Shown here piece after piece: positions 19,931-48,574 of a stretch of 64,000 nucleotides of DNA. This DNA comes from Candidatus Saccharimonadota bacterium (GTDB taxonomy: Bacteria; Patescibacteriota; Saccharimonadia; Saccharimonadales; Saccharimonadaceae): NCBI GenBank assembly GCA_030445245.1, contig JAUCSD010000001.1, forward strand, positions 812,671 to 876,670, read 5' to 3'. The position numbers and the translations under genes were made by a program. Under the pieces are notes generated by a model. It was given only the letters and a program-made list of their open reading frames with translations. It was not told the DNA's origin and searched no databases. Numbering within the stretch: the first letter of the stretch is position 1; every line of letters starts with the position of its first letter.

Positions 19931-19983
19931 CCTCCATAGAAAAAAGTCCTAGCCATAATGGACAGGACTTTTTTCTATGGAGG
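19931..19983 (-). repeat. 20-bp perfect inverted repeat overlapping the tRNA-Lys 3' end
   Basis: Arms 19931-19950 and 19964-19983 are perfectly complementary over 20 bp, with a 13-nt loop (19951-19963). The tRNA-proximal arm begins at tRNA nucleotide 71 and contains the discriminator and the encoded CCA. The arms also hold A6/T6 tracts, so the hairpin may act as a bidirectional terminator, but no U-run follows the stem. Confidence 0.85.
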
Positions 19984-20054
19984 GCCCAGTGGGACTTGAA
20001 CCCACGACACCCTGCTTAAAAGGCAGGTGCTCTAACCAGCTGAGCTATGGGCCC
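19978..20054 (-). tRNA. tRNA-Lys (anticodon UUU), CCA encoded
   Basis: A full cloverleaf on the minus strand, 77 nt including CCA. The acceptor stem is GGGCCCA/TGGGCCC, the D arm GCTC/GAGC, the anticodon stem CCTGC/GCAGG around loop CTTTTAA, and the T arm GTGGG/CCCAC with TTCAAGT. The loop gives anticodon TTT, hence lysine. The discriminator is T followed by genomic CCA. Confidence 0.97.
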
Positions 20055-47691: not shown

Positions 47692-47768
47692 GGCAGCATA
47701 GCTCAGTTGGTTAGAGCGTAGGACTCATAAGCCTAAGGTCACAGGTTCGAACCCTGTTGCTGCTACCA
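47692..47768 (+). tRNA. tRNA with anticodon CAU (elongator Met or Ile2), CCA encoded
   Basis: 77 nt. The acceptor stem is GGCAGCA/TGCTGCT (G1 pairs U72), the D stem GCTC/GAGC, anticodon arm TAGGA-CTCATAA-GCCTA with an A31/G39 mismatch, T arm ACAGG/CCTGT with TTCGAAC. The anticodon is CAT. It lacks the three G-C pairs and the C1/A72 mismatch of initiator tRNA, so it is the elongator or the TilS substrate tRNA-Ile2; tilS is in this window. TACAAT lies 14 nt upstream. Confidence 0.93.
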
Positions 47769-47810
47769 TGAAAATCCCCTCATCGAAAGATGGGGGTATT
47801 TTCATGGTAG
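47763..47810 (+). repeat. 22-bp hairpin overlapping the tRNA 3' end
   Basis: Arms 47763-47784 and 47789-47810 pair over 22 positions with one mismatch and one G-U pair, closed by a GAAA tetraloop. The left arm starts at tRNA nucleotide 71 and includes the discriminator and CCA, the same layout as at tRNA-Lys. No U-run follows. Confidence 0.88.
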
Positions 47811-47860: not shown

Positions 47861-48574
47861 CTACTTATCAGAATTGCGACGTGCGATTTCATCTCCATAT
47901 GCCTGGTCTTGAAGAGCAGAGTGTTTCAGAGCGCTCATGAACAAGCCTTTTTTTACTTGAGCAGATACGTCTTTTGCGCCGTTCTCGATGTCGTACGCTT
48001 CTCGCTCTGCCTTCAGATATTGACGTTCCGCTTCCTTGTGAATGTCATCCAACCCATAGTACTTATCATTTAAGCGGACGGGGACATTCGGTTCCGAATC
48101 TTCATCTGGAACATGAAAGTCTAAAACACGACCAAACTTTGCAACGAGTGGGCGCATAGCTTCAGGTACTGCGCTCTCTTCAGAATCCGTTAAATCATAG
48201 ATAGAGATCAGCGGATTGTGGTCTCTCCACATTAACCTTTTTGATTTCAACTCAGGAGGAATCACAACATCGCTCTGCTCGCCATTCATTAAAAACCTGT
48301 AAGCAGTTGACGGCACGTCATGATCTGTCTTAGCAGCGATCATCACCACTTCTCCGCTCTCATTTATATACGATGACGTCTTTCCGTAGCCTTCTTCTTT
48401 CCATAGTGCTTCGGTACTCTTATTTGCATCTTCAAGCTCATCAAGACCTTGCGGTAGTTCGCCACGCATAATACGTCCAGTCAAATCGGCAAGCATGCGA
48501 AGGTGCTCTTTGTCCTCAAGCTCTTCTCTGTCATTATCAAGTTCTTCATTGTTTGTTTCTGTAACGTTTTCCAT
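47861..48574 (-). CDS. Uncharacterised acidic protein
   Basis: 237 aa, strongly acidic N-terminus (NNEELDNDREELEDKEH), soluble, mixed helix/strand, with DVVIPPELKSKRLMWRDH and a C-terminal helical region of Lys/Glu/Ala. No family is recognised. It starts 6 nt after TAATAT, inside an imperfect palindrome that nearly repeats the one before the DUF1704 peptidase gene, which suggests a common regulator. Confidence 0.68.
   Translation of the reverse strand: MENVTETNNEELDNDREELEDKEHLRMLADLTGRIMRGELPQGLDELEDANKSTEALWKEEGYGKTSSYINESGEVVMIAAKTDHDVPSTAYRFLMNGEQSDVVIPPELKSKRLMWRDHNPLISIYDLTDSEESAVPEAMRPLVAKFGRVLDFHVPDEDSEPNVPVRLNDKYYGLDDIHKEAERQYLKAEREAYDIENGAKDVSAQVKKGLFMSALKHSALQDQAYGDEIARRNSDK

Follow-up and report, generated by a model that had tools for sequence, protein, structure and literature searches.

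The window analysed here is a stretch of 64,000 nucleotides from a Candidatus Saccharimonadota bacterium and contains only two tRNA genes, identified with ARAGORN as Lys(UUU) and CAU, each of which runs directly into a hairpin that takes in the end of the tRNA itself. The features of the two loci are as follows.

47692-47768, + strand: tRNA-CAU gene (Met type; ARAGORN; RF00005, 69.5 bits), with A73 at 47765 and CCA encoded at 47766-47768
47763-47784, + strand: 5′ arm of the hairpin, made up of C71-A76 of tRNA-CAU and 16 nt of 3′ flank (sequence, fold)
47785-47788, + strand: GAAA tetraloop of the tRNA-CAU hairpin (sequence)
47789-47810, + strand: 3′ arm of the hairpin (sequence, terminator scan, fold)
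47805-47808, + strand: UGGN (here UGGU), complementary to the tRNA-CAU tail A73-C74-C75-A76, an element enriched and covarying across Saccharibacteria
19978-20054, - strand: tRNA-Lys(UUU), CCA encoded (ARAGORN)
19931-19983, - strand: tRNA-Lys hairpin, C71-A76 paired with UGGAGG past the U-tract (sequence)

Behind tRNA-CAU, the 5′ arm reads C71 U72 A73 C74 C75 A76 UGAAAAUCCCCUCAUC, and the 3′ arm, GAUGGGGGUAUUUUCAUGGUAG (47789-47810), passes from the GAUGGGGG core through the U-rich tract UAUUUUCA (47797-47804) to UGGUAG (47805-47810), which is complementary to C71-A76 of the tRNA. Of the 22 stem positions, one is a C-T mismatch (47776/47797) and another a G-U pair (47780/47793), and the tRNA together with the hairpin is predicted to fold at -51.9 kcal/mol (z = -6.4), with six acceptor-stem pairs kept. 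Sequence and fold bear out the preliminary description of this stem, its single mismatch, its loop and its start at C71, and the hairpin behind tRNA-Lys likewise reaches C71, as had been noted. The GC-rich stem-loop of an intrinsic (Rho-independent) terminator is present in the fold and in a terminator-like core found by the terminator scan (47777-47796), and the U-rich tract expected over some 7–9 nt past such a core is present as an 8-nt tract. Judged by its letters, the hairpin is of intrinsic-terminator form and is placed flush with the CCA. The preliminary description had set these hairpins against chance terminators and had argued from both tRNAs for a recurring feature. The recurrence stands, as seen in the in-register enrichment and N73 covariation described below, but the opposition to terminators does not, since the hairpins look like terminators: a GC core is followed by 8 nt of U-rich sequence, and the base is flush.

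The genome of 1.16 Mb has 40 tRNA matches, and we read the 3′ flanks of 39 tRNA genes, 28 of which carry a terminator-like hairpin by the set criteria. The full NCCA is paired in only five of these 28, so that finding it at two of two tRNAs in the window was lucky. The stems of these five reach nt 69 (Arg-GCG), 71 (Lys-UUU and Met), 72 (Leu-UAG) and 73 (Gly-UCC); among the remaining terminators some are flush and pair A76 or CA alone, and many start 8–27 nt off. A shared register at nt 71, as originally claimed, is not upheld by this varying reach.

To place these hairpins in their lineage, we sampled 20 relatives in the order together with 80 loci around a Thr–Tyr–Thr cluster, many of them titled Candidatus Saccharibacteria, which yielded 556 distinct tRNAs, all 556 with an encoded CCA and 285 with a terminator. 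Among the distances that separate stem and CCA, zero is the commonest (59/190 and 38/95 terminators). A scan for repeats that include the CCA had been suggested as the check, and it finds the CCA paired in register in 36 of 190 terminators, compared with 0–5 in registers shifted by 1–3; for the full NCCA the counts are 26 and 0–2. CCA pairing is nonetheless a minority feature of tRNA terminators, seen in 48 of 285, or about 16–17% of all and roughly one in three of those that are flush. The proposed test for covariation between flank and acceptor end is also positive, as the base after UGG is complementary to N73 in 35 of the 48 cases with UGG (A73 with U in 27, U73 with A in six and G73 with C in two, including GCCA-UGGC and UCCA-UGGA), with a permutation p < 5e-5 that, like the other p-values, carries no phylogenetic correction; the counts take in related sequences, and the cases span many genera and tRNA types.

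Among 122 flush hairpins free of the insertion units described below, the paired counts are 101 for A76, 70 for C75, 60 for C74, 68 for N73, 33 for nt 72 and 29 for nt 71, with a background G of 23% for comparison. Given UGG, a small residual pairing excess is left at nt 72 (19/48, p = 0.015). Since pairing is near background at nt 72 and 71, the conserved edge is that of the unpaired NCCA tail, at nt 73 and not at nt 71, and it falls just where the acceptor stem ends. Intrinsic terminator stems are known to evolve by compensatory change (PMC5381666), and here stem columns +1 to +9 covary strongly (column +3 forms Watson-Crick pairs in 125/137 cases, with 43 expected), which indicates that the A/U arms, too, are kept paired. 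Among tRNA terminators 32% have a stem of 15 bp or more, compared with 6% of non-tRNA terminators. CCA pairing was absent from the 21 tRNA terminators of other Patescibacteria (107 CCA-encoding tRNAs with few terminators) and from ten terminators of a small E. coli sample, and it has been gained and lost among orthologous tRNA-Tyr genes within Saccharibacteria. On this comparative sequence evidence, the CCA-pairing hairpins of Saccharibacteria are real, tRNA-specific and far beyond chance.

The intrinsic terminators of E. coli tRNA genes such as leuX and proK resemble these hairpins in placing a GC-rich hairpin and a U-tract directly behind an encoded CCA. They differ in that stems in the E. 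coli sample start 2–9 nt or more past the CCA, and Saccharibacterial stems mostly start at zero, often including NCCA. Removal of the E. coli leuX terminator reportedly needs PNPase or RNase P (Mohanty & Kushner 2010, cited in PMC6181284). A second likeness is to the T-box riboswitch, in which the antiterminator UGGN pairs with the NCCA tail of a tRNA and stacks coaxially on a helix (PMC7583486). The Saccharibacterial UGGN is likewise complementary to NCCA with its N matching N73, but it pairs in cis with its own precursor, and there is no stem I, antiterminator or regulated gene. In place of a trans-binding leader upstream of an amino-acid-related gene, there is here a hairpin behind tRNA-CAU itself, with the following gene (47861-48574) on the opposite strand. 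Among open-licence papers we found no report of CCA-pairing terminators in Saccharibacteria.

It could be that the hairpin is merely a strong symmetric (bidirectional) terminator, in which the A-tract after the CCA pairs with the U-tract and the CCA is paired incidentally, through the length of the palindrome. As in such terminators, the A-tract and U-tract arms pair and, as noted, covary; the median distance from the GC core to the flush base, 8 nt, is the length of the U-tract, and equally long-stemmed non-tRNA terminators are likewise extended outwards, with a rate of about 0.46 for each step. Symmetric terminators do not, however, extend into a tRNA tail. The per-step rate of continuation through NCCA is 0.88/0.69/0.62/0.73 in tRNA terminators and drops to the level of the controls precisely at nt 72 (0.45), compared with a flat 0.42–0.48 in 1099 non-tRNA terminators from the same stretches, a control set from which 113 tRNA-end remnants had been removed. 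In addition, 36/110 flush tRNA terminators have UGG at 8–9 nt beyond the GC core, but only 7/84 non-flush tRNA terminators (8%) and 24/755 non-tRNA terminators (3%) do, and a G opposite both C75 and C74 is tRNA-specific. We judge this explanation somewhat unlikely. A purely mutational origin, in which the palindrome has no function and is perfected outward, as far as the tRNA end, through fold-back copying or template switching, would fit the varying length of the extension (3–8 nt), the turnover of UGGN between relatives and the inverted T-arm copies behind some hairpins, and it could also account for the longer inverted tRNA copies found within the insertion units. We give it a low probability, as there is far less of such extension in non-tRNA terminators, loci free of units are at background past nt 73, and the edge at N73/72 is a boundary that copying at the DNA level need not respect.

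Very improbable, in our view, is that the hairpin marks a site or remnant of recombination or insertion, although the 3′ ends of Saccharibacterial tRNAs do appear to be targeted by small tRNA-derived units that duplicate the end and its hairpin. The last 12 nt of a tRNA recur downstream on the same strand in 33 cases, compared with two in all other orientations; the units have a flush hairpin of the same kind, with UGG and an inverted T-arm, and the CCA is paired in 8/15 unit-bearing and 37/127 unit-free flush hairpins. Yet most CCA-paired hairpins have neither a unit nor relic complementarity past nt 73, and no unit lies near any tRNA of this genome, so units do not explain the hairpin in the window. 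No direct repeat of the tRNA 3′ end of the att type lies within 450 nt of either tRNA in the window, and all tRNAs of the genome gave one weak match at chance level; an integration remnant is not needed to explain the tRNA-CAU site. A promoter reading, with UGGUAUAAU-like extended -10 boxes past the U-tract, was ruled out by the way N tracks N73 (UGGC after GCCA, UGGA after UCCA), and a generic pause signal of a U-tract followed by GG was ruled out by its being mostly missing from non-tRNA and non-flush terminators. Convergent tRNA pairs with a common terminator were likewise set aside, with two convergent pairs near terminators in the whole sample.

The hairpins bear on how the 3′ ends of tRNAs mature in a minimal epibiont, for which no CCA-adding enzyme, RNase Z or RNase PH could be detected. 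PF01743 (CCA-adding enzyme/poly(A) polymerase) has no match in 13 Saccharibacteria genomes, including the window's, compared with 10/10 bacterial controls; it is also absent from the three Saccharibacteria of a second set and is present in 30/39 genomes overall. In the same 13 genomes there is no RNase Z over the cut-off and no separate RNase PH, each genome having PF01138 solely in a single two-domain protein the size of PNPase. RNB gives two weak partial matches in 2/13 genomes and the RNase D-type domain weak matches alone in 3/13, RNase III is found in 13/13, and PNPase is the main exonuclease found.

The explanation that we favour, with a confidence somewhat below even, is an intrinsic terminator placed flush with the tRNA end and extended by UGGN in about a third of flush cases, making NCCA double-stranded, probably for its protection or maturation. 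It starts from the statistics of flush placement, compensatory pairing along the whole stem including the usually bare U-tract, in-register UGG, covariation with N73 and an edge at the acceptor stem. In this proposal, the precursor would fold as a coaxial stack of the acceptor stem and a hairpin of ∼20 bp, which would hide the encoded CCA from 3′-to-5′ trimming, with PNPase the main candidate, up to the point where the helix is opened by an endonuclease, for example RNase III or RNase P, and the tail is released. Such cover would matter because these bacteria, with neither a CCA-adding enzyme nor RNase Z detected in them, appear unable to restore a CCA once it is lost. Against a role in CCA protection, the pairing is confined to a minority of terminators (5/28 here, 48/285 overall) and turns over among tRNA-Tyr orthologues; three other Patescibacteria without a PF01743 match (G021, G028 and G048) encode CCA and, in small samples, manage without such hairpins; and UGGN sits 9–12 nt beyond the GC core, where intrinsic termination usually lets go of the RNA or slightly farther on, so that many transcripts may not include it. 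Cis pairing over exactly NCCA nevertheless offers a testable answer to the question of 3′-end maturation and a distinctive signature of the lineage, and it suggests that terminators may also do RNA-processing work.

A wider reading, which we hold to be unlikely as a whole, would join these hairpins and the insertion units in one lineage-specific 3′-end system: a T-box-like UGGN:NCCA latch in cis would guard an irreparable CCA, and a new class of structured elements of ∼165–190 bp would land on these same hairpins, each with ends copied from the local tRNA (inverted T-arm, direct copy split in the T-loop, CCA and new hairpin). The units do suggest that tRNA ends in Saccharibacteria are recombinationally active, and they lead to what is apparently an unrecognised family of tRNA-associated elements. 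The 33 recurring tRNA ends have a period of mostly 165–190 bp, and a typical unit consists of a flush hairpin, often with UGG, an inverted local T-arm, a structured core and the local tRNA 3′ end with CCA, usually followed by another hairpin. The second copy of the tRNA end is identical to the local tRNA over 11–29 nt, with an insert in the T-loop.

Units of ∼165–190 bp lie directly behind tRNAs of other Saccharibacteria at L055:1400-1980, L064 near 7670 (- strand) and L066:1060-1290, and further unit-bearing loci are L077, L097, L101, L110, L111, L125, L128, L136 and L142. Many Saccharibacterial tRNAs are followed by such a unit, and there are several units per genome, with cores that are alike and ends that match the local tRNA. 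At least three types of core can be told apart by eye, one of which has the motif CGCRCAG-hairpin-CCGAGCA (L043, L060, L101, L110, L111, L125 and L139); six of the nine matches to this motif in 2.8 Mb sit 61–121 bp behind a tRNA. An Rfam scan of eight unit loci matched no family except tRNA. Longer, island-like stretches of 0.7–4.8 kb also occur between tRNA 3′-end repeats, in L064 (1.7 and 3.4 kb), L066 (1.1 kb), L076 (0.7 kb), L077 (1.3 kb), L088 (4.8 kb) and L101 (1.1 kb). Short tRNA 3′-end repeats (43–81 bp) are found in L065, L109, L116 and L140, several of them with GGAACUUCGUAAAC before the second copy.
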